The position numbers were made by a program, and so were the translations under genes. This document shows, in pieces, positions 33,730 through 55,404 of a DNA stretch of 64,000 nt (positions are counted from its first letter, which is position 1; the number at the start of each line of letters is the position of its first letter). Under the pieces are notes generated by a model. The model saw nothing but the letters and a program-made list of their open reading frames with translations. It was not told where the DNA came from and ran no database searches. Origin of the DNA: Streptomyces globisporus (GTDB lineage Bacteria; Actinomycetota; Actinomycetes; Streptomycetales; Streptomycetaceae); NCBI GenBank assembly GCA_014649555.1, contig BMTG01000019.1, positions 25,290 through 89,289 on the forward strand, given 5' to 3'.

Positions 33730-34065
33730 ATGAGTGACAACGACAGCCCGTCCCGGGCGCCGGCCGCGGTGGCACCCGCCACCGCGAAACCGTCGGCCGG
33801 CACGGTCCTCGGCGCCGCGGTGGCTTCGCCCGCCGCCTACACCGCGGCGACCGCCCAGGAAGCGGCGACCGCGCTGGTCCGCATGCTGATGGAACAGATG
33901 GTGCTCGGTCCCGGCGCGGTCGGTCCCGAGACCCGCGCGGACGGCCCGGCGCGGCGGATCGGCTCCGACGACGGCCCGGCGCCGCAGCCCGGACCGGACG
34001 CGCCGGGCGAACCCCCGCCCACGTGGGCGCCGAACCTCGACGACGGGAAGGTAGGAGGACGATGA
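33730..34065 (+). CDS. Hypothetical small Ala/Pro-rich protein
   Basis: A 111-residue protein without a family I recognise. The N-terminal third is Ala/Pro-rich, the middle has one possible helix (AQEAATALVRMLMEQMVLG), and the C-terminal half is rich in Gly, Pro and Asp and looks disordered. No signal peptide or cysteine is present. Its stop overlaps the start of the following AhpD-like gene (ATGA), so the two are coupled and probably work together. It may be a small partner of that enzyme. Confidence 0.6.
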   Translation: MSDNDSPSRAPAAVAPATAKPSAGTVLGAAVASPAAYTAATAQEAATALVRMLMEQMVLGPGAVGPETRADGPARRIGSDDGPAPQPGPDAPGEPPPTWAPNLDDGKVGGR

Positions 34066-35102
34066 GGCCGCTCGTTCGGGCAGTGCTGCGGGGTTCCCTG
34101 CGGCAGGTGAGGTACGTGGACGTGGTCTCCCCGCGCCGGGCGCGCTCCCTGGTGGCGCGGGTGTACCGGGAGACGGAGGAGCAGTTCGGCGTGCTCGCGC
34201 CCCCTCTGGCCCTCCACTCGCCCGCCGCGGCGTCGTTGGCCGCGACGTGGCTCATGCTGCGGGAGACACTGCTGGTCGACGGGCGGGTGAGCCGGGCGGT
34301 GAAGGAGACGGTCGCCACCGAGGTCTCCCGTGCCAACGACTGTCCGTACTGCGTCCAGGTCCATCAGGCGGTACTCGGGACACTGCCTCCGGACGGCGGC
34401 CAGGCCGGGCTCCTGCGGTGGGTCCGGGAGGCAGGCCGACGGCCCGGCGGCGGTGCGGCGGGCGGCGGGCGGTCGCTTCCGTTCAGCGGTGAACAGGCGC
34501 CGGAACTGTGCGGCGTCGTGGTCACGTTCCACTACATCAACCGCATGGTCTCCCTCTTCCTCGACGACTCCCCCATGCCGGCCCGGACGCCGACACCGTT
34601 GCGCGGGCCCATCATGAGGACCACCGCACTGGCCATGCGCCCCGTCGGCCCGGGGCCGCTGACACCGGGCGCATCGCTCGACCTGCTGCCTCCGGCTCCC
34701 CTGCCGCCCGGACTGGAGTGGGCCGAGGGCAACCCTTTCGTGGCCCAGGCGCTGGGGCGTGCCGTCGCCGCCGTGGACCAGGGAGCGCACTGGGTGCCCG
34801 AACCGGTCCGGGAGCGGCTGCGCACACGTCTGGACACCTGGGACGGATCGGCGCCGGGCCTCGGCCGGGGATGGCTCGACGAGGCCGTGTCCGGCCTGCC
34901 GCCCCAGGACGTGCCCGCGGCACGGCTGGCGCTGCTGACGGCCTTCGCCCCCTACCAGGTGCTCCCGGACGACGTCGAGGAGTTCAGACAGCGTCGGCCC
35001 ACCGACCGCGAACTCGTCGAGCTCACGTCCTACGCCGCGCTGACCACGGCCGTCCGTGTCGGTCGCACGCTCGTCGTGCCCGACGCCGCCGGGCCGGGAT
35101 GA
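34062..35102 (+). CDS. AhpD-like (carboxymuconolactone decarboxylase fold) protein
   Basis: A 346-residue protein with an AhpD-type redox motif: Cys94, Cys97 and His101 in ANDCPYCVQVHQAV, preceded by VSRAVKETVATEVSRA, the helix that normally carries the proton-relay Glu. AhpD proteins are thiol peroxidases or reductase adaptors, usually about 170 residues; this one is twice that length, and the C-terminal half (PPGLEWAEGNPFVAQALGRA and onward) has no motif I recognise. It could handle peroxide or a thiol/disulfide step. It is convergent with the SDR gene, whose unshifted frame ends 31 bases away. Confidence 0.72.
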   Translation: MRPLVRAVLRGSLRQVRYVDVVSPRRARSLVARVYRETEEQFGVLAPPLALHSPAAASLAATWLMLRETLLVDGRVSRAVKETVATEVSRANDCPYCVQVHQAVLGTLPPDGGQAGLLRWVREAGRRPGGGAAGGGRSLPFSGEQAPELCGVVVTFHYINRMVSLFLDDSPMPARTPTPLRGPIMRTTALAMRPVGPGPLTPGASLDLLPPAPLPPGLEWAEGNPFVAQALGRAVAAVDQGAHWVPEPVRERLRTRLDTWDGSAPGLGRGWLDEAVSGLPPQDVPAARLALLTAFAPYQVLPDDVEEFRQRRPTDRELVELTSYAALTTAVRVGRTLVVPDAAGPG

Positions 35103-35132
35103 ACGGCCCCGCAACGGCTCGGGAAGGCTGTC

Positions 35133-35991
35133 TCACGGCCGGAGGCGTACGCCGGTGAGGTGCTCGGACTCCTCCCAGAGGCGGCGCCGGGCCCCGGGGT
35201 CGACGGCCGCTCCGCCGGGGCGCACGAGCCCGGGTGCGCCCCGCCCGCAGACCGGGCAGCATCCCCGCCGCGGCGGGCTGCAGGAACAACGGGGCGAGCG
35301 GGGAGCCGAGCCTGCGCACGGGCGCGGGAAAGTCCCGGCCCAGACCGGTCGCGGTCAGCCCGGGATGAGCGGCGAGCGAGGCCAGCTCCGCGCCGGACTC
35401 CGCCAGTCTGTGATGGAGTTCCAGCGCGAACATGAGGTTGGCCAGCTTGGACTGGTTGTAGGCCCGGTACCGGCTGTAGCGGCGTTCGCCGTGAAGGTCG
35501 CGGAAGTCGATGCGCCCCAGCCGGTGCAGATAGCTGCTGATCGTCACGACCCGCGCGCCCGGCGCGGCCCGCAGGCTGTCCAGGAGCAGGCCGGTGAGGG
35601 CGAAGTGCCCCAGGTGGTTCGTGGCGAACTGGAGTTCGTGACCGTCCGGGGTGCGGGCCCGGTCGGTCCACATCACGCCCGCGTTGTTGACCAGCAGGTG
35701 GATGCGCGGGAAGCGGTCGCGCAGTTCCTCGGCGCCGGCACGCACCGACGCGAGACGGGAAAGATCCAGCCGTCTGACCGTCAGTTGCGCCGACGGCACC
35801 CGGCTTTGGATGCGGGCCGCCGCGGCGACCCCGCGGTCCGGATCGCGCACGGCCAGCACCACGTGGGCGCCGTGCCGGGCGAGCTCCTGCGCCAGGTGCA
35901 GTCCGATGCCGGAGCTGGCACCGGTGACCACCGCGGTGGTTCCGGTACGGTCCGGGACATCGGCGGCGCTCCAGCGTCGCCGCGTTCTCAT
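35133..35991 (-). pseudogene. Short-chain dehydrogenase with a 3' frameshift
   Basis: An SDR of the retinol-dehydrogenase-like type: VTGASSGIGLHLAQEL (NAD(P) loop), LLVNNAGVMW, FATNHLGHFALTG, ISSYLHRLG and the catalytic YNQSK. Up to about GMLPGLRAG the frame is normal. After that the reading frame runs 110 bases past the expected end and turns into Arg/Pro-rich sequence lying antisense to the AhpD-like gene. One base over in phase, the sequence continues PGLVRPGGAAVDPGARRRLW and then EESEHLTGVRLRP followed by TGA at 35133-35135, a normal SDR tail. One G too many in the ggggcgc run near 35240 explains it. ATG 35991 has GGGAGGG upstream. Confidence 0.75.
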
Positions 35992-36015: not shown

Positions 36016-36567
36016 TCAGCCGGCCTGGGCCATCGCGGCCCGGTAGCCGTTGGCGACGATCTGCCGGGCGGAGTGCTCGTAGTACTCGTCGTCCTTCGGC
36101 AGCTCCGTGGCGAGACCGCTGACGTACCGGTTGAACATGCAGAACGCGGCGGCGATCAGAACGGTGTCGTGCAGAGCGGTGTCGTCCGCTCCCTCGGCCC
36201 GCGCCGAGGCGATCGCCCCTGCGGAGACCGGGCGCGCCGCGCTCTGGACCTCGGCGGCGACGGCCAGCAGCGCGCGCGTCCTGCCGTCGATGGGCGCGGT
36301 GGCGGGGTCGGCGAGGACGGCCTCGACGAGCTGCCGGCCTCCCGGCAGCTGCGCGGCGGCGAAGGCCCCGTGGGAGGCGGCGCAGAACTCGGTGGAGTTG
36401 AGATGCGAGACGTACGCCGCGATGAGCTCGCGTTGCCCCGGTTCCAGCGAGGACGGCGCCCGCAGCAGGGCGTTCGCGAGATCGCCCAGCGGTGCTGCGG
36501 TGCCGGGGTGGTGAGCCATCAGACCACTGATGCCGGGGAGGTCGTTGTCGAGTGCTATGTGGGGCAC
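36016..36567 (-). CDS. AhpD-like peroxidase-related protein
   Basis: A 183-residue carboxymuconolactone-decarboxylase-fold protein of the peroxidase-related group. The active motif is NSTEFCAASHG with Cys62 and His66; the second Cys of CxxC is Ser65 here. The helix ELIAAYVSHL precedes it. A single-Cys site suggests a peroxidase or other chemistry instead of a disulfide reductase. GTG 36567 follows GGAAGGAAG. It is 24 bases before the SDR gene and 41 bases after the VEWP peptide gene on the same strand, so the three probably form one operon starting near 36800. Confidence 0.8.
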   Translation of the reverse strand: MPHIALDNDLPGISGLMAHHPGTAAPLGDLANALLRAPSSLEPGQRELIAAYVSHLNSTEFCAASHGAFAAAQLPGGRQLVEAVLADPATAPIDGRTRALLAVAAEVQSAARPVSAGAIASARAEGADDTALHDTVLIAAAFCMFNRYVSGLATELPKDDEYYEHSARQIVANGYRAAMAQAG

Positions 36568-36608: not shown

Positions 36609-36776
36609 TCAGGGCCATTCGACTTCGTCGTCGGCGGCCGCGCAGATGCGGGTGAAGGGCCATTCCACGTCTTCCCCTCCCGTTGCGGAGTGGGCGGAGG
36701 CCGTGGTGAAGAGGGTGACGAGTCCGAACGTGCCGAAGAGGAGGGACAGTCGGGCAACGTGAAGTGCGGTACCCAT
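36609..36776 (-). CDS. Small exported peptide with two VEWP motifs
   Basis: A 55-residue product. Residues 1-28 look like a signal peptide: one Arg at position 9, a hydrophobic core (LSLLFGTFGLVTLF) and an ASA cleavage site. The predicted mature part of 27 residues carries DVEWPF near its start and ends in EVEWP, with one Cys between. AGGAG stands five bases before ATG 36776, which supports real translation. It leads an operon with an AhpD-like enzyme and an SDR and lies near an XRE-TPR regulator. It could be a peptide signal, a ribosomal peptide precursor or a small exported cofactor protein; none of these is proven. Confidence 0.62.
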   Translation of the reverse strand: MGTALHVARLSLLFGTFGLVTLFTTASAHSATGGEDVEWPFTRICAAADDEVEWP

Positions 36777-36856
36777 GCGAGCTCCTAGCGAGGGCGGCGT
36801 GACCGCGGGACGGTGAGACCTCGTGATGCCAGGAAGCTAGCGAATCGGACTGAGGG

Positions 36857-36889
36857 TGGCAACGATATGCCAGACTTTGGCAACTTGCC
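36857..36889. promoter_or_regulatory. Inverted TGGCAA/TTGCC operator-like motifs, site 1
   Basis: This short AT-richer stretch upstream of the peptide gene has TGGCAA at 36857, TGCCA at 36868 and the inverted pair TGGCAA-c-TTGCC at 36878-36889. The same half-sites recur at two other promoters of the island. They are candidate binding sites for the XRE-TPR regulator encoded at 37.8 kb. Confidence 0.5.
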
Positions 36890-36895
36890 TGGGTA

Positions 36896-37513
36896 TCAGC
36901 CGGACTGTCGGCCGCTGGTGAAGACGGAACGGCGAGATCCCGCGACCGCGTCGCTGAGCAGCAGGGTCTGCTCACCCAGCGTCGGGGCGGCCAGCATGTC
37001 GCGTACCGGGAGCGTGACGCCCAGCTCGCGGTTGATCCTGCGGACCAGCCGGGTGATGAGCAGGGAGTCGCCGCCGTGGGCGAAGAAATCAGCACCTTCG
37101 GAGGGGTCCGGGAAGCCGAGCAGGTCACCCCAGCCGCGCACCAGTACCTGGCGGATGTCGCCGGTGGTGACGACCGTGCGCCGGGAGCCCCGACGTGCCG
37201 AGCGCAGCCGCGTGGCATGCACCAGCGCCACCTGGTCGCCGAGGTTGCGCCGCGACAGCTCGCGCAGCGACACCGTGACGCCGAACCTCTCGGTGATCCT
37301 GCGGACCAGCCGCGTGATCAGCAGCGTGTCCCCGCCGCGCGCGAAGAAGTCCGAATGCTCGGTGAGGTCGGAGCGGCCGAGGAGCTCGCTCCACGCGCCG
37401 ACCATGAACTCCCCCACGTCACCGAGCCGGTGCTCGTTGCCGTCGGGGCCCTTCGACGCGCCGGATCCCGCGGAACGGTTCCGGCCGGAGACGGCAGAGC
37501 GGTCACTGGTCAC
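36896..37513 (-). CDS. Tandem carrier protein, two PCP-like domains
   Basis: A 205-residue protein made of two similar carrier domains and nothing else. Domain one (about residues 28-100) has FFARGGDTLLITRLVRRITE with Thr63 at the phosphopantetheine site. Domain two (about 118-190) has FFAHGGDSLLITRLVRRINR with Ser150. The near-identical motifs point to internal duplication. Only domain two has the usual Ser; Thr is not normally modified, so domain one may be a non-loaded partner. The GTG start has GGAGG upstream. No adenylation enzyme sits next to it, so the acyl group it carries is unknown. Operator-like motifs lie in front of it. Confidence 0.83.
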   Translation of the reverse strand: MTSDRSAVSGRNRSAGSGASKGPDGNEHRLGDVGEFMVGAWSELLGRSDLTEHSDFFARGGDTLLITRLVRRITERFGVTVSLRELSRRNLGDQVALVHATRLRSARRGSRRTVVTTGDIRQVLVRGWGDLLGFPDPSEGADFFAHGGDSLLITRLVRRINRELGVTLPVRDMLAAPTLGEQTLLLSDAVAGSRRSVFTSGRQSG

Positions 37514-37582
37514 TTTCGCCACCTCCATGGGCATGTGTCGGCTGCATCGGCTTCCCGCCACGGTACGGGAGCACATGTTGCA

Positions 37583-37731
37583 TGGCAATACCTTTCCAAG
37601 TCGGTGGCAACCCTCCTTGCCATCCACCCGCCGCAGTTGGGCGAGATGTGTAGGCAGTCGAGGTCGGCAGGTTTGCCAAGCCGCGCGCGACCGGCATACT
37701 CTCTGGCACAACTGGAATGAGTAGCGTGGCA
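37583..37731. promoter_or_regulatory. Inverted TGGCAA/TTGCC operator-like motifs, site 2
   Basis: In the divergent region between the tandem carrier gene and the XRE-TPR regulator gene, TGGCAA occurs at 37583 and 37605, TTGCCA at 37617 (forming TGGCAA-n6-TTGCCA) and TTGCCAA at 37673, with partial copies TGGCA at 37704 and 37727. This is the densest cluster of the motif and is where autoregulation and control of the carrier gene would act. Confidence 0.5.
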
Positions 37732-37793
37732 GGCCACGGGGACCGGGCCGGGCCAGGAACCTTCGTCCTCCATCTATTCGCTGGGGCGTGCAC

Positions 37794-39029
37794 GTGTTGG
37801 AGCAGCCATCTTTCGGCCGTCGCCTGAGGCAGCTGAGGACCGAGCGGGGTCTTTCCCAGGCCGCGCTTGCGGGGGACGGCATGTCTACGGGCTATCTCTC
37901 GCGCCTGGAGTCGGGCGCCCGGCAGCCCTCCGATCGCGCCGTCGCCCACCTGGCCGGACAACTCGGCATCAGCCCGTCGGAGTTCGAAGGCTCCCGGGCC
38001 ACCTCGCTCGCCCAGATCCTCTCCCTCTCCACTTCCCTGGAGTCCGACGAGACCAGTGAGCTTCTCGCCGAGGCGGTACGTTCCGCGCATGGCCAGGATC
38101 CGATGCTCCGCTGGCAGGCCCTGTGGCTGCTGGGACAGTGGAAGCGCCGGCACGGCGACTCGGCCGGCGAGCACGGCTACCTCCAGCGTCTGGTGACGCT
38201 GAGTGAGGAGATCGGCCTGGCCGAGTTGCGCGCACGGGCCCTGACCCAGTTCGCCCGGTCGCTGCGGGTACTGGGCGAGATCGTTCCGGCGGTGGAGGCC
38301 GCCGCCGCCGCCCACCGGCTCGCGGTGGACCATGCGCTGTCCAGCCAGGACAGGGCCGCTTCGCTGCTGGTTCTGGTGTCGGTGGAGGCCGAGGCGGGAC
38401 GGATGCCCGATGCCCGGCGCCACGCCGACGAACTGACCGTCCTGGTGAGGGGACGGTCCGACACTCTGTGGGCCGAGGCGTTGTGGACGGCGGGCGCGTT
38501 GAAGGTGCGGCAGGGCGAGTTCGCCGCGGCCGAGGTCCTTTTCCAGGAGGCTCTGGACGGGTTCGACAGCCGGGAGAACCTGACGATCTGGCTGCGGCTG
38601 CGCATCGCGATGGCCGAACTCCACCTGCAGAAACTTCCCCCCGAGCCCGACGCCGCGCAGCTCTGCATCGAGGCGGCGGAGGCGGCCCTTCCCTTCGCCC
38701 GCACATCCGCTCTGGAACAGTCCCTCGCCGCTCTGCGGGCGCGCCTCGCCTTCCATGAGGGCAGGTTCGCCGATGCCCGCGCGTTGTTGGAGAGGCTCGG
38801 CAGGACCGAGCTCCGGCTGCCCTATCAGAGCCGGATCCGCCTGGAGGTCCTCGGTCATCAGCTGCGCATCCTGAGCGGGGAGGAGGAGGAAGGCCTGGCC
38901 GGCCTCCAGCTCCTGGCCGAGGAGGCGCAGGAGAACTCCAACATCAACCTCGCCGCGGAGATCTGGCGGCTCGCGGCGGAATGCCTGATGCGGGCGCGCG
39001 GGAAGGTCCGCGGCGCCACCGGCGGCTGA
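37794..39029 (+). CDS. XRE-family regulator with TPR-like domain
   Basis: A 411-residue transcriptional regulator. Residues about 5-60 are a Cro/CI-type helix-turn-helix: FGRRLRQLRTERGLSQAAL, then STGYLSRLESGARQPSD and LAGQLGISPSEF. The rest is an all-helical tetratricopeptide-like array. This architecture is shared with the peptide-binding RRNPP regulators and with many actinomycete XRE-TPR proteins. A GTG at 37794 was preferred to one at 37788 for spacing from GGGG. It is divergent from the tandem carrier gene, and repeated TGGCAA sites flank it. A ligand is not known; the exported peptide gene one kilobase away is a candidate. Confidence 0.82.
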   Translation: MLEQPSFGRRLRQLRTERGLSQAALAGDGMSTGYLSRLESGARQPSDRAVAHLAGQLGISPSEFEGSRATSLAQILSLSTSLESDETSELLAEAVRSAHGQDPMLRWQALWLLGQWKRRHGDSAGEHGYLQRLVTLSEEIGLAELRARALTQFARSLRVLGEIVPAVEAAAAAHRLAVDHALSSQDRAASLLVLVSVEAEAGRMPDARRHADELTVLVRGRSDTLWAEALWTAGALKVRQGEFAAAEVLFQEALDGFDSRENLTIWLRLRIAMAELHLQKLPPEPDAAQLCIEAAEAALPFARTSALEQSLAALRARLAFHEGRFADARALLERLGRTELRLPYQSRIRLEVLGHQLRILSGEEEEGLAGLQLLAEEAQENSNINLAAEIWRLAAECLMRARGKVRGATGG

Positions 39030-39555
39030 CGCCGCGCCGGTTCGCGAGGTCCACCGCGCCGCCGTGGCCACCGCCGTCGGCGTGAGGCGCCGGCGTGTGC
39101 CGCCCCCCACGGTTGCTCGCCCCCGGTGGTGCATCTGTTGGCACATATGTACCTCCTGCACAGTCAATTGTTGCCAAAATTGTCGAACCGAATGGCAATT
39201 GCTTGCCTTTGCTGAAGAGGCGTGCTGATATGCAAGCCAAGTAGCCTCCTCCGATCTCGGGCGGCCATATGGGAAACATCGAGTTGAGCGGCGAAGGCGT
39301 TCGTCAGTGCTGCCGTTCTGGCCAGGCAACCGATGCCGATGGGGATGGCAAGATTTTGCCGAAAACCGATACATGTCTGTCCGTCCCGGACAGCCTTCGA
39401 CCCCTGGGTGACACTGCTCCGCCATGGCTCCGGTTTCTCGTCGCCCGGCCGACGGACCGCACCGTCCGGAACGAGGCGCCGGTGTGCGTCCGCTGATGGG
39501 CACAGCGGCCTCGGCCGCAGCAGGTTCCCACCGAGAAGAATGCCGAGGCCCAGCC
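39030..39555. promoter_or_regulatory. Intergenic region with operator-like motifs, site 3
   Basis: These 526 bases between the regulator and the proline-dehydrogenase-like gene hold no convincing gene. They include AT-richer stretches with TTGGCA at 39138, TTGCCAA at 39171, the pair TGGCAA-n4-TTGCC at 39193-39207, and another pair TGGCAA-n4-TTGCC at 39346-39360. They probably form the promoter of the gene at 39556. Confidence 0.5.
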
Positions 39556-40530
39556 GTGAACCACGACATGTCCCAGCGTGCCTTGCTGGAGGCGGCGGCC
39601 GAGGGGTTGCGGCGGCTGGCCGGCGACGCGCGGTGCCGGAGCGTTTCGGCCGCGCCCTCCTCGGCATTGAGGGACATGTTCTCCCCCGCCGCCCGCCGGT
39701 ACGTGCTCGCCTCGGACCGCGCGGGGTTCTTCGAGCAGGCTGTCCGGCTGCGCTCCCGGGGGTACCGGGTGAGCGCGGAGTTCGTCGGCCCCGATCAGGG
39801 AGCCACCGACGCCCTCCACGCGGAGCACGTGGTCGAAGAGCACCTGAGGCTGCTCGATCAGGAACCGGCCCCTGACCGGATCGGTGTGGATATCTCCCGG
39901 ATCGGCCTCGCCCACTCGGCGCAGACGGCCCTGCGCAACACCGGGCGGCTGGCTGCCGCTGCGGCGCTCCGCGGGAGCGAGGTCGTCCTGCTCATGGAGG
40001 GGTCCGAGGACATCGACACCGTGCTGGCCGTCCATGACGCCCTGGTGAACCGTTACGACAACGTGGGGATCACCCTTCAGACGCACCTGCACCGCACCGT
40101 GGACGACGCCATGGCGGTCGCGGGCCCTGGCCGCACCGTGCGGCTGGTCATGGGCTCCTCGGCCGAGCCCGCCGGCACCGCTCTGTCCCGGGGCCCCGCT
40201 CTGGAGGACCGGTACCTCGACCTCGCGGAGCTTCTCGTGGACCGTGGCGTCCGGCTGAGTCTGGCCACTCCGGACGCCGAGGTCCTGGCCGGGGCGCAGG
40301 AGCGTGGTCTGCTCGAACGCGTCCAGGACATCGAGATGCTCTACGGTGTGCGGCCCGAGCTGCTGCGCCGCCACCGGGCGGCGGGCCGCCCCTGTCGCAT
40401 CCATGCGGCCTACGGGATGAACTGGTGGCTTCCCCTGCTGCGGAGGCTGGCCGACAACCCGCCGATGGTGCTCAACGCCCTGGCCGACATCGGCCGGGAC
40501 CGGGAGCCCGTCGCCCACCAGGCGTACTGA
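39556..40530 (+). CDS. Proline dehydrogenase-like flavoenzyme
   Basis: A 324-residue protein that resembles the single-domain proline dehydrogenase TIM barrel. Points of similarity are VGITLQTHLHRTVDDA (the QxxL strand), the Arg-rich segment before it, and the C-terminal RIHAAYGMNWWLPLLRRLADNP, which parallels the YGxxWxxxxxRRLxExP substrate-binding helix. The N-terminal third (FFEQAVRLRSRGYRVSAEFVG) also fits. It may oxidise proline or another cyclic amino acid, free or carrier-bound; the nearby tandem carrier protein makes the second option attractive. GTG 39556 has GAGG upstream. No second pathway enzyme of proline catabolism is adjacent. Confidence 0.68.
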   Translation: MNHDMSQRALLEAAAEGLRRLAGDARCRSVSAAPSSALRDMFSPAARRYVLASDRAGFFEQAVRLRSRGYRVSAEFVGPDQGATDALHAEHVVEEHLRLLDQEPAPDRIGVDISRIGLAHSAQTALRNTGRLAAAAALRGSEVVLLMEGSEDIDTVLAVHDALVNRYDNVGITLQTHLHRTVDDAMAVAGPGRTVRLVMGSSAEPAGTALSRGPALEDRYLDLAELLVDRGVRLSLATPDAEVLAGAQERGLLERVQDIEMLYGVRPELLRRHRAAGRPCRIHAAYGMNWWLPLLRRLADNPPMVLNALADIGRDREPVAHQAY

Positions 40531-48457: not shown

Positions 48458-51400
48458 TCATGCGCGGGCGCTCCCGGGGGCCGCATCGTCCGTGCCGGCG
48501 GTGAGGAACGCGAGCACCACGGGCTCTTCGACGTGCCGCAGTGTGGTGGCGAAGGTCGCGATGCGCAGCCCGCCCGCCGTCAGGACGATCCACCCGCTTC
48601 TGACCTGCGGCTCCAGGGTGAGAGGCGCCCCGGCCGGAAGGCCGGCCTTCTTCAGGCACTCGACGGCCGTCCACACGCGGGTCGCCGCGTGGTCCGGCGT
48701 CTCCCCGGTCTCCTTGGCGACCAGGGCCGCCAGGTTCCCGTGCTCGCCGAGGAGTCCCTCCCACGCCTGCGCACCGCGAGCGGTGACCGCCTCGATGTCG
48801 CAGGCCACCGTGGTGGTGCCGACGACGCCCAGTGTCACCCCCGGGCCGTGTGCTGCCGACAGGCGGCGCACGCCGTCGAGTTCGGGCCGCCCGTCGGGCC
48901 GGTATCGCACCTTCACACTCTCACCGAGCGCCCGCTGGACGGCCCGTGCGGTGGCCTTGCGGCGATCGGCCACGGAGCCCCCGGAGTCTGCTGGGACCGG
49001 CTCCACGGCGACGTCGACATGGGTGCCGAGCACTTCCTCCAGGGTTCTTTCGAGATAGGAGCCGAGCAGCGGCGCGACCCATGGGCCGGACCCGTCCGAC
49101 TTGCGCACGGCATGAAGGGTGAGCCCGTCCCACCGCTCGACGACGGAGCCGTCGGGAGTCCGCACGGCGATGTCGTACACATAGGTGTCGCCGTCCCGGT
49201 GGCGCTCGGTCGCGCAGTAGCGGACCAGCTCCGGGAGATCCTCGCCGGCCGCCATCGGATACAGCCGCTCGATGCCGGACGGGAGCAGGGTCGCGTCGGG
49301 GACGCACACCTGGTTTCCGTGCATCAAGGCGTCGCGCATCCCCGGGTCCGAGAGCAGCAGCGTGCCCGGCAGGAAGCCGGCGAACCAGCCGGACGCCGTG
49401 TCGAGCGCCACCTCGGCGTCGACGTGCCGGGCTGCGGCCCGGTGGAAGCGCCGCAGCCGCTGGAAACGCTCGCCCTGGAAGAGCACCCCGCCGTACAGGT
49501 CGGTCGCGGGGTCCAGCGGAGCCGCCGGCACCTTCGGCCCCACCTGGTCGGGGGCGCCGTCCGGGATCGCCACGCCGCCGTAGACCAGCCGCGCCCGGAA
49601 GTGCTCCGCCGCGAAACCGGTGTCCTGCGCGTGGACGGCCACGTCCACACGGTCGGTGCCGGTGACGGTGGCCGCGATCCGGATGCGGGTCGTGCCGCCG
49701 GGTGGCACCACGATCGGCCGCAGGAACCGGGCGTCCTCGATGACCGGCACGTCCCGCCGGCCGGTGACGGCTGAGCCGACCTGGACCATGGCCTCCATTC
49801 CGATCACCGCGGGCAGCAGCAGGTTGCCGTCCAGCATGTGGTCGGTGAGGTAGAGGTCCGTGCCGGCGTTCAGTTCTGCCTCGGTGACGAGTTCCACGCC
49901 GTGGTAGCGCACCAGGGGCTCCCCGGTGAAACGCAGCAGCGGCAGCGGGGGCTGCTCGCGCCGGACGGTTCCGATGCCTTCCGTCCGGCCGCTGATCACC
50001 GTCACCACCGGGGCGTCGGGGTCGGAGATCAGACGCAGCAGAATCTCGATGCCCTGGTCGGGCGAGACCGGCACGATGCCCTCGCGGGAGAGGGACTCGA
50101 CGACGGACAGCTTCTCGCCCATGCCGACGCCGGACCAGACGGACCATTCCATGCACAGCGCCCGGCAGTCCGGGTTCCGGCGGGCCACGTCCTCGGTGAG
50201 TCCGGCCAGCCACTCGTTGGCCGTGGCGTAGTGGGCCTCCCCTCGAAGCCCCGCCCGGCCGATGATGCTGCCGAAGGTGACCAGGAGTCTGAGGTTCTGC
50301 TCGCCGACCACGTCCAGCACGTGCCGCAGCCCGTCGACCTTGGGGGCGAGCGTGCTGCGGACGGCGGCCATGTCCAGCCCGCCGAGCGCAGTCGGCTCGT
50401 TGCGTCCCGCACCGTGCAGGACAGCGGTCACGGATCCGAGTGCCTCGGTCAGTTCGGCGACGGCCCCGGCGACGCGCACCGGATCGGTGACGTCGGCGGC
50501 CGCGTAGGCGACGCGGATCCCGCTCTCCCTCATCCGTCCCAGGTTCGCGGCGAGGTCTTGGTCGCTGCCCGGGTCCGAGCGGCCCAGCACGGCCAGCGCC
50601 GCGCCGGTCCGCTCGGCGACGGCCAGCGCGCACTCGGCGGTGATGCCCTTGCCGCCGCCCGTGACGAGCAGGACGTCGTCCGGGCCCAGCACCTGGTCGG
50701 TACGGTCCGGGGCGAAGGGCAGGGCCCGCAGCACGGGCACCCGCCGGGTGCCGTCCCGGTCGAGGTGCACCTCGCTGAAGTGCGTGGTCGCCGCGACCTC
50801 GGCCGCCACCCGGTCCGCGGCTCCGTCGGCCACCGGAGTGTGGACGACGGTGGTTCGCAGGTGGGGCGCCTCCAGGTGCAGGGTCTTGGCCAGACCGGCC
50901 GCGCCCCGGTCGTGCTGCACCAGGACGAAGCGTCCCTCCTGGCTGCCCGCGAGGGCCGATCTCGCCCCGTCCAGGGCGAGTTCGAGCTGATCAGGGGAGC
51001 AGCCGGCCGGCAGGCACACCAGAACTCCGGAACCCACCGCGGCGTCCTGGAGAGCGCGCCGGACTTCCTCGGCGAACGGGTGGTCGGCGGAGGTGAACAG
51101 CTCCCACGTGCCGTCCTTCTCATCCGCCACCGCCGGAGGGAGGGGCAGTTCGTCGAGGTCGACGGAGAAGGGCCGGGCCCAGGCCGCGGACCCGGTCACG
51201 ACGGGCGCCGCCGTCGGGTCCGCACCCGTCTCGACCAGGGTCGTGAGGGCCGAGGCCAGTTCCGCCAGGGTCGCCGTGGCGAAGTTCGTCGGAATGCTGG
51301 ACGGGGCGAGTCCGAGCCGGACAGCCGTCTGGTTGACGATCTGGCCGACGGTGATCGAGCTCATGTGCAGATCGTCGAGGAGACTGCTGTTCTCGTCGAT

Positions 51401-54277
51401 CAACTCGCTCGGAAGCTCCGCCCGCTCGGCCACCAGTGCGCGCAGCACGTCCAGCGCCGACTCCTCCGCCGTGTCGCCGGCGCCCGCGGTCGTCGGGGCG
51501 TCGTGCTCCTGGACGAGCGGTTCACGAGCGGCGGCGGGAAGCGTGAACTCGGGGGCCTGCTCGCAGGGGCTGGACAGGAAGAGGAACTCCTTGCCCACCT
51601 CCAACGGCCGGGTCAGCCGGTCGTTGAAGAGCCGCTCGTGAATGATCGGGGCCCCGATCACGAAGGCGGCGCCGACCACCTGCAACAGCCCGCGCAGCGA
51701 CTCGTCGTCGGTGTTCAGCGCGACAGCGGGTTTCCCGGCGGCCTCCGCGGCCAGGACGCTCAGCACCCGGCCGGGCCCGACCTCGACGAACAGGTCGACC
51801 TCGGCCGCCGCCGCCCGGACCGCCTGGGTGAACAGCACCGGGTCGGTGATCTGCTGCCGCAGCAGCTTGGCGAGATCGGTGTCGCGCTCCAGCTCCGCAC
51901 CGGTGACGGTGGAGACGACCCGGCGTCCCAGCCCACCCAGCGGAGCCTTTGCCAGCCAGTCGCCGAAGGACTCGGCGGCCGGGGCGACGAGAGGGGAGTG
52001 GAAGGCGTGCGACACGGCCAGACGGGTGAAGGCGATCTCCGCGGCCGCCGCCCGCTCCCCGACACTCTCCACGGCCTCGACGGTCCCGGCGACCACCGTC
52101 TGCCGGGGACCGTTGTACCCGGAGATCACGACCGGCAGCCCCTCGACGAGCCTGACCGCCTCCTCCGGGGTGGCCGTCAGGGAGGCCATCGTGCCCGAAG
52201 CGCTGTGCGCGGCCATGGCCGCACCGCGGGTGCGTGCGGCCTCCAGCAGCGTGGCCTCGTCCAGAGCACCCGCCCAGTGCAGGGCGGAGAGCTCGCCGAG
52301 ACTGTGACCGAGTGCGATGTCGGCCTCGACGCCCAGAGCTTCCAGTACCCGGAGTCCGGCCGTGGAACCGGTCACGATCCGCGGCTGGGCCACATGGGTG
52401 GCGACCATGTCTCCAGCGGTGGGAAGGCCTGCGCGCGCGTAGACCTCGGCGGCCTCGGTGAACCTGCGGGCGAGCGCACCGCCGGCCGTCGAAGTGCCGG
52501 AACCCTGTCCCGGGAAGAGGAAGCCGACGCGGGCTCCCTCGGCGGCGGTGCCGAGGAAGGCACGGCCGTCCTGGGAGAAGACCGGGCCGTCGTCGGGCGT
52601 CCGCCCCCCGGCGGTATCGGCCAGTCCGCGCAGCCTGAGCTCGGCGTCCTCCGGCGAGGTGACCACGACGGCGGCCCGGTGGGGCAGGTCGCGCAGTTCC
52701 CGCTGGAGGGTCGCGGCCAGATCGCCGAGCTGGGCATAGGAGACCTGCGCGGCGAAGTCGGCGACCTGGGTCAGCCGGCGGGCCAGCGCCGCGGGCGATT
52801 CCCCGTCCAGGAGCAGCAGTTCGGAGTCCTGGAGGGAGTTGGCCAGCAGCGTGGTCCGGCGGTTGACGGCAGGGCGGCGCCCGGAGGCGTCCGACCTGTC
52901 GAGGACGACATGGGTGTTGATCCCGCCGAAGCCCATGGCGGTGATGCCGGCCCGCAGCGGCGCGTTCTCGGGCCATGACTCCGCCTTGCGCAGGACGCGC
53001 AGGTTGGCGGACTCGTCGGTGAGCAGGTCGTGGGGGTCCACGCAGCCGATGGCGGGGGGCAGCACCCCGGAGTCCAGGGCCATCACCGCCTTGATCAGTC
53101 CGGCGATCCCCGCTGCCGCCTTGGTGTGGCCGATCATGCCCTTGATGGAGGTGATGACGGCGCTCGGGGCGTGGGGGTCGGCTGCGGCGCGCGCACTCAT
53201 GATCGCCCGGAGTTCGGTGGCGTCACCGACCGCGGTACCCGTGCCGTGGCCCTCGAAGAGCGGCACGGTCTCGATGCCGAAGCCCGCCCGGTCGTAGGCG
53301 CGCGACAGCGCGAGCTGATACCCGCTCACCTCGGGCCGGGTGATACCTCCCTGGCCGTCGGACGAGATGCCCCAGCCGGCGATGGACGCGTAGACGCGGT
53401 GCCCGGAGGCGACCGCGTCCTCCTCGCGCATGAGGACCACCATGCCGCAGCCCTCACCCGGCCAGAAGCCGTTGGATCCGCGGTCGTAGAGCCGCATCTC
53501 CTTGCGGGCGAGCGCCCCGGTCTTGGCGAAACCGATGATCTCGAACGGGTCGATGGACAAATCGACGCCACCGGCGACGGCCACGTCGAGGTCGCCGCTC
53601 TGCAGCGAGGTGGCCGCGGTGGTGATGGACAGCAGCGAGGACGAGCAGGCGCCGTCGACGGTGTAGCCGCCGCCGTTCAGGTCGAAGTGGTTGCAGATCC
53701 GCCCGGCGATGGTGTTGGACAGGCCCCCCGCGAGGGTGTCCTCGTCCACGGCGGGGAAGGGCTTCTTGTACGCCTCTTCCACGCCTCGGAGGAATGCGCC
53801 GAGGCGGTCGTCGTCCCACTCCTGCTCCTGGAGGGCGTCGGCGAGGATCCGGCGTACGTAGGGCCACCGCAGTCGCAGGCCATTGGCGCGGGAGAACTCT
53901 CCGGTCAGCGTGTTGCCGACGACGACTCCGGTGCGCTCGGAGGGCAGCCCCTCACCGGCCGGGAAGCCGGCGTCCGCCAGCGCTCGGGTCGCCGTGTCCA
54001 GGGCGAGCCAGTGGGTGAGGTCGGTGGAGCGGAAGGTGCTGCCGGCGATCCGGTGGGCGACGCGGTCGAACTCCCAGCCCTCCAGCACCGCCGCATTGCG
54101 GGCGTAGAAGGTGTCGGGGACCGTGGGGTCCGGGTTCCAGTAGTCGTCCAACCGCATCCGGACGTCGGGCAGTCTGCGGAAGGCCCGTCGTCCGGCGACG
54201 GCGTTCTCCCAGAGCTCCCGGGGGGTGGTGGCGTCGGGGTACGTGCACGCGACGCCGACGATGGCTATTCGGCTCAT
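48458..54277 (-). CDS. sgcE: Iterative enediyne polyketide synthase (PKSE)
   Basis: A 1939-residue iterative type I PKS with the enediyne domain order. Ketosynthase: Cys211 (DGACSSSL), His344 (EGHGTGT) and His384 (GHTKAAAG). Acyltransferase: Ser659 (GHSLGEL). Carrier domain: Ser974 in LDDLHMSSITVGQ. Ketoreductase: TGGGKG and Tyr1350 (YATAN). Dehydratase: His1480 in DHMLDGNLLLPAVIG. C-terminal phosphopantetheinyl transferase: Asp1827 and Glu1829 (CDIE) and VWTAVECLKKAG. All key residues are present, and the length and numbering fit those recalled for SgcE of C-1027. It makes the linear polyene precursor of the core. The ATG overlaps the E5-type stop by four bases. Confidence 0.97.
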   Translation of the reverse strand: MSRIAIVGVACTYPDATTPRELWENAVAGRRAFRRLPDVRMRLDDYWNPDPTVPDTFYARNAAVLEGWEFDRVAHRIAGSTFRSTDLTHWLALDTATRALADAGFPAGEGLPSERTGVVVGNTLTGEFSRANGLRLRWPYVRRILADALQEQEWDDDRLGAFLRGVEEAYKKPFPAVDEDTLAGGLSNTIAGRICNHFDLNGGGYTVDGACSSSLLSITTAATSLQSGDLDVAVAGGVDLSIDPFEIIGFAKTGALARKEMRLYDRGSNGFWPGEGCGMVVLMREEDAVASGHRVYASIAGWGISSDGQGGITRPEVSGYQLALSRAYDRAGFGIETVPLFEGHGTGTAVGDATELRAIMSARAAADPHAPSAVITSIKGMIGHTKAAAGIAGLIKAVMALDSGVLPPAIGCVDPHDLLTDESANLRVLRKAESWPENAPLRAGITAMGFGGINTHVVLDRSDASGRRPAVNRRTTLLANSLQDSELLLLDGESPAALARRLTQVADFAAQVSYAQLGDLAATLQRELRDLPHRAAVVVTSPEDAELRLRGLADTAGGRTPDDGPVFSQDGRAFLGTAAEGARVGFLFPGQGSGTSTAGGALARRFTEAAEVYARAGLPTAGDMVATHVAQPRIVTGSTAGLRVLEALGVEADIALGHSLGELSALHWAGALDEATLLEAARTRGAAMAAHSASGTMASLTATPEEAVRLVEGLPVVISGYNGPRQTVVAGTVEAVESVGERAAAAEIAFTRLAVSHAFHSPLVAPAAESFGDWLAKAPLGGLGRRVVSTVTGAELERDTDLAKLLRQQITDPVLFTQAVRAAAAEVDLFVEVGPGRVLSVLAAEAAGKPAVALNTDDESLRGLLQVVGAAFVIGAPIIHERLFNDRLTRPLEVGKEFLFLSSPCEQAPEFTLPAAAREPLVQEHDAPTTAGAGDTAEESALDVLRALVAERAELPSELIDENSSLLDDLHMSSITVGQIVNQTAVRLGLAPSSIPTNFATATLAELASALTTLVETGADPTAAPVVTGSAAWARPFSVDLDELPLPPAVADEKDGTWELFTSADHPFAEEVRRALQDAAVGSGVLVCLPAGCSPDQLELALDGARSALAGSQEGRFVLVQHDRGAAGLAKTLHLEAPHLRTTVVHTPVADGAADRVAAEVAATTHFSEVHLDRDGTRRVPVLRALPFAPDRTDQVLGPDDVLLVTGGGKGITAECALAVAERTGAALAVLGRSDPGSDQDLAANLGRMRESGIRVAYAAADVTDPVRVAGAVAELTEALGSVTAVLHGAGRNEPTALGGLDMAAVRSTLAPKVDGLRHVLDVVGEQNLRLLVTFGSIIGRAGLRGEAHYATANEWLAGLTEDVARRNPDCRALCMEWSVWSGVGMGEKLSVVESLSREGIVPVSPDQGIEILLRLISDPDAPVVTVISGRTEGIGTVRREQPPLPLLRFTGEPLVRYHGVELVTEAELNAGTDLYLTDHMLDGNLLLPAVIGMEAMVQVGSAVTGRRDVPVIEDARFLRPIVVPPGGTTRIRIAATVTGTDRVDVAVHAQDTGFAAEHFRARLVYGGVAIPDGAPDQVGPKVPAAPLDPATDLYGGVLFQGERFQRLRRFHRAAARHVDAEVALDTASGWFAGFLPGTLLLSDPGMRDALMHGNQVCVPDATLLPSGIERLYPMAAGEDLPELVRYCATERHRDGDTYVYDIAVRTPDGSVVERWDGLTLHAVRKSDGSGPWVAPLLGSYLERTLEEVLGTHVDVAVEPVPADSGGSVADRRKATARAVQRALGESVKVRYRPDGRPELDGVRRLSAAHGPGVTLGVVGTTTVACDIEAVTARGAQAWEGLLGEHGNLAALVAKETGETPDHAATRVWTAVECLKKAGLPAGAPLTLEPQVRSGWIVLTAGGLRIATFATTLRHVEEPVVLAFLTAGTDDAAPGSARA

Positions 54278-55404
54278 ACAGGCACCGCCGCCTTTTTCTT
54301 CGACGCTCGTTCGGCTGCGCACTTGCCGTGGAAGCAGGTGCCGTCCTTGCAGGGGTTGCCCGAGAGGACGACCGTCGCCGGCTCGGGCGATCCGTCCACC
54401 GGTCCGGAAGCGGCGGCGGTCGCCGGGGCGGCCGCCATCTGCTCGACCGCGGTGTCGGGGCCGTGGCCCTGGACCCCGAGGGCGGGAGGCGCCTGAGCCT
54501 CACGCTGCTTGGCGAGGAAGTGCAGCCCCCACAGGTAGCCCCCGCGGATCAGGCAGATCAAGGCGGTCGCGAAGAAGATGCCGTACGCGATTCCGAGAGC
54601 GGTCAGCACGCCGTACATCGCCGCGACCCCGGCTCCGAAGAAGATCTGGGAGGATCGCTTGGAGGGTGAGGTGCCGGGGTCGGTGACCATGTAGTTGGTG
54701 AAGAGCACGAAGGCGACGCCGGTCATCATGCCGAGTGCCGCGGGGATGGATGTGCCCATGACCAGCCCTCGGACGACGGCCTGCACCACGAAGCCGCCGA
54801 GCCAGGCCATGATCAGCCACATGCGTCCGGTCAGCTTGGCGTTGAGCATGGTGCCCAGGACCAGGATGATCGCGGGGAGCACCCAGTCCGCCGGGCCGTA
54901 CAGGTACTCGGTGAAGTGGTAGGGCGGCGCGATGCTCGCCCACGGGAAGAGGACCAGGATCATTGCGATCCCGAAGTTCGACGGGTTCATGTAGTGCCGC
55001 ATGCGGCCCTTGAGCGGAGCCCGCAGCACCCACTTGGTGCCGACGGCCACGATGACGCCGAAGACCATGACCCACACGCGGTCGTTGACGTAGGTCAGCA
55101 TGTTCACGGCGAGGCCCGTGATGTGGGCGGGGAAGAGGAATTCGACCATCCCCTTGAACCCCCCGCCGGCGTAGCGGGGCGCCCGCTTCTCGCCGCGGGC
55201 GCTGACGGCCTCCAGGACGATCTCCACCGCATAGGCGGTGAGGACCGCGATGAAGGGCCACAGCCATGGCTGTTCGAAGCCGAGGAAGGTGTACCCGGCG
55301 ATGTTGAGGATCGAGATCGAGATCGCGAACCGGCGGAGGGCGGTGGTGACCTTCACATCGTGCCGGGGGGCGGGCGTGAGCGTCTTTGAACCGGGCACGG
55401 TCAC
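54274..55404 (-). CDS. sgcE5: UnbU-type membrane protein (enediyne E5)
   Basis: A 376-residue integral membrane protein with about eight to nine hydrophobic helices (ISISILNIAGYTFLGFEQPW, WVMVFGVIVAVGTKWVL, NFGIAMILVLFPW, and others). UnbU proteins occur in the minimal enediyne cassette and resemble the RnfD/NqrB membrane subunits (MNPSNFGIAMIL, FTNYMVTDPGTSP). They are thought to help transform the polyene. The C-terminal tail ends in a Cys-rich segment NPCKDGTCFHGKCAAERASK. GTG 55404 overlaps the E4-type stop by four bases. Confidence 0.9.
   Translation of the reverse strand: MTVPGSKTLTPAPRHDVKVTTALRRFAISISILNIAGYTFLGFEQPWLWPFIAVLTAYAVEIVLEAVSARGEKRAPRYAGGGFKGMVEFLFPAHITGLAVNMLTYVNDRVWVMVFGVIVAVGTKWVLRAPLKGRMRHYMNPSNFGIAMILVLFPWASIAPPYHFTEYLYGPADWVLPAIILVLGTMLNAKLTGRMWLIMAWLGGFVVQAVVRGLVMGTSIPAALGMMTGVAFVLFTNYMVTDPGTSPSKRSSQIFFGAGVAAMYGVLTALGIAYGIFFATALICLIRGGYLWGLHFLAKQREAQAPPALGVQGHGPDTAVEQMAAAPATAAASGPVDGSPEPATVVLSGNPCKDGTCFHGKCAAERASKKKAAVPV

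Follow-up and report, generated by a model that had tools for sequence, protein, structure and literature searches.

Trp-Pro-ending peptides and XRE-TPR regulators as a probable pheromone-receptor family attached to Streptomyces biosynthetic clusters

What is the role of a 55-codon gene that lies beside an XRE-family regulator in a biosynthetic region of Streptomyces globisporus? The window analysed here is a stretch of 64,000 nucleotides (contig BMTG01000019.1, positions 25,290 to 89,289), in which a short open reading frame (ORF) and the gene of a regulator with helix-turn-helix (HTH) and tetratricopeptide repeat (TPR) parts have starts about 1.0 kb apart, the distance already given in a preliminary description of this DNA, with one gene, for an acyl carrier protein (ACP), between them. 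We consider it very likely that the peptide is a pheromone precursor and that the XRE-TPR regulator is its cytosolic receptor, working in the manner of the RRNPP systems of Bacillota. It is also likely, in our view, that the pair belongs to an undescribed actinomycete family of pheromones with the core x-[IVL]-[DEGS]-W-P, carried in 1 to 13 copies per precursor and sensed by SgcR-type receptors, which would act as private quorum-sensing switches for many Streptomyces clusters, including that of C-1027; this would place RRNPP-type signalling outside Bacillota, and synthetic pentapeptides are predicted to operate the switches.

The ORF translates as MGTALHVARLSLLFGTFGLVTLFTTASAHSATGGEDVEWPFTRICAAADDEVEWP, followed by a stop codon, and leads from a hydrophobic N-terminal stretch through an AxA-like region to EDVEWP...DDEVEWP and the stop. 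Immediately 5' of it stands CTAGGAGCTCGC-ATG, and the 55-residue peptide with a strong ribosome site that had been singled out from the sequence is thus confirmed. Export by Sec is probable for this peptide, with hydrophobicity as the sole basis of that assignment. We regard the ORF as a gene because its frame and both cores are retained in genomes G057 and G188 and at locus L007, the second core of G057 being VYWP. Homologues were found in 3 of 199 genomes of the genus including its own (83% in G057, 41% in G188), and at 80-100% in 8 Streptomyces plasmid records, all of them annotated 'hypothetical protein'. The receptor next to the 83% peptide (L005, 8657-9852, on G057:C2) consists of the C-terminal 114-117 residues only; the contig also carries, at a distance of 26 kb, a second receptor (73%) that is full-length and has an ELDWP peptide of its own. 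Searches of Pfam and NCBIfam with the window peptide and six other precursors returned no family above the cut-off. Within its own genome (8.2 Mb), the DNA pattern [IV][DEG]WP-stop has 4 matches, compared with 3 for a control pattern; among the ORFs in a 3-kb stretch around each, a short leader-bearing ORF occurs only at the window match, and the stretches around the other three hold no XRE-TPR gene.

The pairing of such ORFs with the regulator was followed across loci that carry a relative of the receptor. Twelve loci came from genome contigs, and 63 of 392 genomes of the genus matched at E ≤ 1e-40; the genus search comprised 75 match rows (counted by hand), from which 60 regions were used, plus the window and G188, while 13 rows were left aside as duplicates, fragments, rows with internal stops or second copies in a genome. 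The window, the 12 contig loci and the 60 genus regions, minus 3 duplicates, make up a set of 70 loci, whose receptors are 35-100% identical to the window regulator over the aligned part. At class level, 11 of 394 genomes, in 2 of 137 genera, matched at E ≤ 1e-70, and 6 class-level loci brought the number to 76. Plasmid records gave 36 matches, and 29 with another query; 13 plasmid loci from 29 records, fetched after the core motif had been fixed and with near-duplicates and records already in the set skipped, completed the total of 89, although L129, L132 and L136 seem to represent a single lineage. All loci are related by descent, so that close relatives are not independent.

Of the 70 loci, 35 carried the strict DNA pattern [hydrophobic][DEG]WP-stop once each in the 1.8 kb upstream of the receptor, where 0.58 occurrences were expected in total. 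The receptor genes themselves and 126 kb of downstream sequence contained none, and 636 kb at a greater distance contained 3. A relaxed motif was present at 54 of 76 loci, in 59 ORFs where 4.8 would be expected; 4 were counted downstream and 24 far from the receptor. The final criteria admitted ORFs with at least 2 cores, a C-terminal core, or a core headed by D, E or N with a short tail, between -2.6 and +4.5 kb. With this range and these copy criteria, which were fixed after the data had been seen, the receptor has a short ORF bearing the x-[IVL]-[DEGS]-W-P core near it at 61 of 89 loci (50/70 genus and contig loci, 2/6 class-level loci and 9/13 plasmid loci), and the absence of the peptide from homologous loci, which the preliminary description had named as decisive against its proposal, was therefore not what we found. 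The 614 kb covered by this range hold 64 core ORFs, the other 502 kb none. After clustering of the 76 receptors at 50% identity, 10 of 13 clusters contained at least one positive locus.

Further scans bear on these counts. Inspection of 22 core-less loci added four cores, two in leader-bearing precursors with two copies (L072, L081) and two single ones (L059, L075), and nothing else consistent. Among the six class-level loci, the fixed regular expression found L122 only, and visual inspection of the reading frames yielded in addition L121, with DISWP copies, and L124, with DEDIGWP; the two counted under the final criteria are L121 and L122. As for the plasmid loci, 6 of 13 have a D/E/G/S core within 1.8 kb upstream, or 8 of 13 if N or Y is allowed, the additional L129 and L132 being doubtful. 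With the earlier motif and range, 3 of 13 had a downstream core ORF, two of these multi-core, and L135, L137 and L139 are positive under the final criteria through a downstream multi-core ORF. In the reverse direction, the DIGWP/DIDWP DNA pattern matched in 144 of 392 genomes, most of the matches listed being isolated; all six places with at least 2 matches in 400 bases, among the matches listed, share a contig with a receptor of the family (G155, G209, G132, G385, G001 and G101). Five of these lie within 3 kb of the receptor, and in G001 the receptor match is partial, at the contig end.

The core itself is narrowly defined. In 55 pairs, nine of them added by hand from relaxed scans (L059, L065, L070, L075, L077, L101, L105, L018 and L124), the residue before Trp is D in 27, E in 15, G in 12 and S in 1, and the residue two before Trp is I in 44, V in 8 and L in 3. 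A table of 46 precursor pairs was built with the requirement for a motif resembling a ribosome site, by which L103 was given a short start despite a longer leader-bearing frame. In this table, 30 precursors end exactly at Trp-Pro and 20 contain at least two cores. Cores either terminate the precursor or are repeated 2-6 times, the six-copy ORF being from Kitasatospora (L135); one extra, leader-bearing precursor on a plasmid has 13 copies of [DAG]IGWP (L172, 1145-1837; G101:C2:88644-89336), is separated by 18.5 kb from the receptor of its contig and stands outside the count of 61 of 89. Arrangements differ as well: genes for peptides of the form xI[DE]WP-stop immediately precede the receptor gene on its strand (L098, L099, L102, L104, L106, L107), GIDWP/DIDWP precursors have two or three copies (L071, L074, L080), and DIGWP precursors, divergent from the receptor, have two to four (L013-L015, L056, L062). 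The most telling evidence for the core as the functional unit is that it recurs with unrelated leaders, with changing orientation and with changing copy number.

Operator-like sites lie in front of the same genes. The window contains 15 TGGCAA/TTGCCA sites, 9 of which fall within 2.5 kb (36857-39346) and occupy three gaps, namely those 5' of the peptide gene, between the regulator and ACP genes, and 5' of a proline-dehydrogenase (ProDH)-like gene. The shared motifs reported in the preliminary description are thus borne out, and the half-site recurs at the relatives. A motif-free comparison of 8-mers upstream of receptors returned mostly TTGGCAA/TTGCCAA/TGGCAA variants, with an enrichment of roughly 17- to 70-fold relative to the other sequence of the loci, the remaining enriched 8-mers stemming from the IDWP codons themselves. 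TTGCCA or TGGCAA stands within 200 bp upstream of 41/46 peptide genes and 38/46 receptor genes, compared with 6/454 random 200-bp windows, with one site possibly counting for both genes of a divergent pair. The spacing of the inverted repeats is weakly constrained (TGGCA-N6-TGCCA is best, at 12 loci). From this placement we infer that the receptor may bind the half-operators directly.

The leaders are less uniform than the cores. A Sec-like hydrophobic segment, defined by hydrophobicity only, is present in 26 of the 46 precursors and absent from 20, so that the Sec-like leader, predicted for the window peptide, is not a universal feature. The leaderless precursors include shortened VEWP/LDWP precursors, an EIEWP group and an MKxxVPARRAAR group; in the VEWP/LDWP clade, 6 of 9 precursors are without a leader and reduced to an ORF of 21-50 residues ending in the core. 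The EIEWP-type precursors of L084-L088 and L090 share a similar non-Sec leader resembling EVFVLRxARPGxxRR. Four loci (L067, L068, L137, L139) encode two precursor types: the upstream ORF is leaderless, of DIGWP type and with a single core, whereas the downstream one has a leader and several cores.

It is here that an intracellular alternative has to be weighed: a microprotein that binds the regulator in the same cell as an autoregulatory co-factor, with export incidental or lost and no cell-to-cell signalling. The leaderless precursors (L049, L008, L050-L053, the EIEWP and MKxxVPARRAAR clades and others) speak for it, and operators before the peptide genes fit feedback. We nevertheless regard it as unlikely, given the strongly hydrophobic N-terminal segments of the other 26 precursors, the leader-bearing multi-copy precursors, which make sense only when processed, and the coexistence of both precursor types at the four loci named above.

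The regulator has the expected architecture of a receptor for such a peptide. Its sequence matches HTH_31 (E 2.6e-11) and HTH_3 (E 2.5e-9), as well as TPR_12 at E 1.6e-4, below the Pfam cut-off, and the predicted structure consists of the HTH followed by TPR-like helix pairs. This predicted fold resembles the structures of Rap, NprR, PlcR and AimR, and other TPR proteins match too; within that limit, the RRNPP-like HTH-TPR architecture proposed earlier is upheld. Sequence similarity to ComR, PlcR and Rgg chains is significant mainly in the HTH and gives no support for homology to RRNPP receptors over the full chain, and a comparison with PHROGs, made with a phage origin in mind, matched the HTH part of the regulator only and nothing for the peptide. 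Among the receptors, 16 conserved polar or aromatic residues sit on the A helices, where conserved Arg and Trp residues cluster. When receptor columns were compared with the core residue before Trp, columns 276, 150 and 138 emerged as candidates for separating Gly from acidic residues, confounded by clade, and the same test found none that separates Glu from Asp. Locus L125 (G573, of another family) carries two XRE-TPR receptors of this family with starts about 4 kb apart, and no core peptide was recognised there.

We take the region to be the C-1027 enediyne cluster, because it holds a type I polyketide synthase gene (48458-54322), because of the strain name and because 24.4 kb of it (30000-54400) match plasmid SGLP1 of Streptomyces globisporus C-1027 with 99.2% identity over their full extent. 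The same 24.4 kb are 99.9-100% identical to four other S. globisporus plasmids, and plasmid annotation lists the pair as 'hypothetical protein' and 'helix-turn-helix domain-containing protein'. An XRE-family gene of the C-1027 cluster, sgcR, is mentioned in passages of PMC2657911 (2009) as one that might be regulatory; judged by family and cluster, the window regulator is probably sgcR. For sgcR, the passages of PMC2657911 that were searched name neither a ligand nor a small peptide. SgcR1, SgcR2 and SgcR3 of the C-1027 cascade belong to the same cluster as sgcR, but are StrR-, AraC/XylS- and TylR-like.

On the minus strand of the window, the ACP gene is followed by the peptide gene and by genes for a carboxymuconolactone-decarboxylase (CMD)/AhpD-like protein and a short-chain dehydrogenase (SDR) (Table 1). 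Two CMD/AhpD-like genes (34023-35099 and 36016-36567) flank the SDR gene in this accessory island. ACP, CMD, SDR and ProDH-like genes accompany the module of the VEWP clade; they were rejected as general partners of the peptide, since no more than about 15 of the 76 loci have them (17 if two weak matches are included). Matches resembling ATP-grasp or L-amino-acid ligases lie near the regulator at 24 of 76 loci, several of them weak (27-34% identity), with none at the other 52 loci, whose flanks vary in length, and none in the window; examples are L014 13918-16203, fused to an enolase-like (MR_MLE) domain, and L104 2237-4829. Nonribosomal peptide synthetase (NRPS), MFS or SARP genes are near other receptors. 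With relatives beside ATP-grasp/L-amino-acid-ligase, NRPS and other genes, the peptide was rejected as an enediyne-specific feature, and the earlier link to an enediyne accessory island does not hold as a specific one. The module resembles a switch that has been joined to a variety of biosynthetic clusters.

Table 1. Positions in the window of the proposed pheromone-receptor module and its probable target genes.
Feature	Position	Strand	Remark
Precursor peptide ORF, 55 aa/55 codons	36609-36776	minus	Sec-like leader, two VEWP cores
Internal core copy DVEWP, residues 36-40	36657-36671	minus	copy conserved in L003, L004, L007
C-terminal core copy EVEWP, residues 51-55	36612-36626	minus	stop codon directly after
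Ribosome-binding site AGGAG of peptide gene	36782-36786	minus	
XRE-TPR regulator, probable peptide receptor	37788-39029	plus	RefSeq start corresponds to GTG 37794 here, probable start
Operator-like sites 5' of peptide gene	36857-36883		TGGCAA-N4-ATGCCA at 36857-36872, TTTGGCAA at 36876-36883
Operator-like sites, regulator/ACP intergenic	37583-37679		perfect inverted repeat TGGCAA-N6-TTGCCA at 37605-37622
Operator-like sites 5' of ProDH-like gene	39171-39361		at 39171, 39193-39208, 39346-39361
Two-domain ACP gene, probable target	36896-37528	minus	PF00550, two stretches; upstream of peptide gene, same strand
CMD/AhpD-like gene, probable target	36016-36567	minus	downstream of peptide
SDR gene, probable target	35023-35991	minus	
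ProDH-like gene, probable target	39424-40530	plus	

The gene context also bears on a second alternative, in which the peptide is the precursor of a ribosomally synthesized and post-translationally modified peptide (RiPP) or peptide antibiotic, its repeated core is the product and the XRE-TPR protein merely regulates the cluster. Multi-copy cores do resemble some RiPP precursors, the conserved MKxxVPARRAAR or EVFVLRxARPG leaders of leaderless forms recall RiPP leaders, and the ligase-like matches could be read in the same sense, as signs of an ATP-grasp graspetide or a ligase RiPP. This seems quite improbable to us, however, because no modifying enzyme is common to the loci among the families tested (ligases, ACP, CMD, SDR and ProDH), because more than half of the precursors (26/46) have Sec-like leaders and because the common partner is the receptor, with its operators in front of the peptide gene. 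That an unrelated small secreted protein is linked to the regulator by chance or by descent, a linkage that could be inherited as the receptors are all homologous and close loci not independent, is hardly credible, since the core is retained through changes of leader, length, orientation, copy number and distance, and in 10 of 13 receptor clusters.

Several observations weigh against a pheromone-receptor pair: 28 of the 89 loci lack a core ORF under the final criteria, among them the plasmid records L129, L132, L136 and L140; the distant receptors L096, L108 and L126, which group apart with weak support, have none either; and G057 keeps the 83% peptide beside a receptor remnant.

If the pheromone-receptor reading is correct, the receptor would control the precursor gene through the operators placed before it, and leader-bearing precursors, recognised by their hydrophobic segments, would be exported by Sec and trimmed to about 5-7 residues ending in Trp-Pro, here [D/E]VEWP, the core as delimited by conservation. 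The mature peptide would re-enter through an oligopeptide permease and be bound by the concave TPR face with the Arg/Trp cluster, whose residues are gathered on one set of helices. Altered binding to the TTGCCA/TGGCAA operators would then switch the peptide gene, the regulator and the nearby biosynthetic accessory genes. Leaderless precursors may depend on a different exporter or act as intracellular reporters.

In the RRNPP(A) systems of Bacillota (Rap-Phr, NprR-NprX, PlcR-PapR, Rgg-SHP, ComR-XIP and AimR-AimP), a cytosolic receptor combines HTH and TPR parts, Rap being without the HTH, and the precursor is encoded by a short gene beside the receptor, often with a Sec leader and with the signal at the C-terminus. 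The system described here is similar in its HTH and TPR receptor, its adjacent short precursor gene and the predicted fold match to Rap, NprR, PlcR and AimR, a likeness that, on present sequence evidence, reaches as far as the anatomy. It differs in belonging to Actinomycetota, in a receptor whose sequence similarity is mainly in the HTH, and in a near-invariant x-[IVL]-[DEGS]-W-P core present in up to 13 copies, leaderless precursors and loci with two precursors. Yeast alpha-factor, whose secreted precursor carries a single short pheromone in tandem copies, is an analogy only, as processing there is eukaryotic and no homology is claimed. Actinomycetota typically signal with small molecules of enzymatic origin. 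In the parts of PMC10075063, PMC9765709 and PMC12700828 consulted, RRNPP is presented as a family of Firmicutes/Bacillota. For Streptomyces coelicolor, passages of PMC9640686 describe a BldK-dependent extracellular peptide of 655 Da, imported by an oligopeptide transporter and presumed to be an aerial-mycelium signal; it is likewise a short peptide signal in Streptomyces, but differs in that presumed role. The open-access literature, with no preprints and few subscription papers, yielded no peptide with a WP core and no actinomycete RRNPP pair, and VEWP, GIDWP, DIGWP, EIEWP and DIDWP are absent as whole words from the open-access papers searched.

Should this be true, genetically encoded short peptides would regulate biosynthetic clusters one by one in the main producers of antibiotics. 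As the DNA sequence discloses the signal, which can be purchased as a synthetic peptide, the claim is cheap to test. It provides a candidate ligand for sgcR of a well-studied enediyne pathway and candidate signals for the oligopeptide importers of Streptomyces, and it would provide a means of activating silent clusters.

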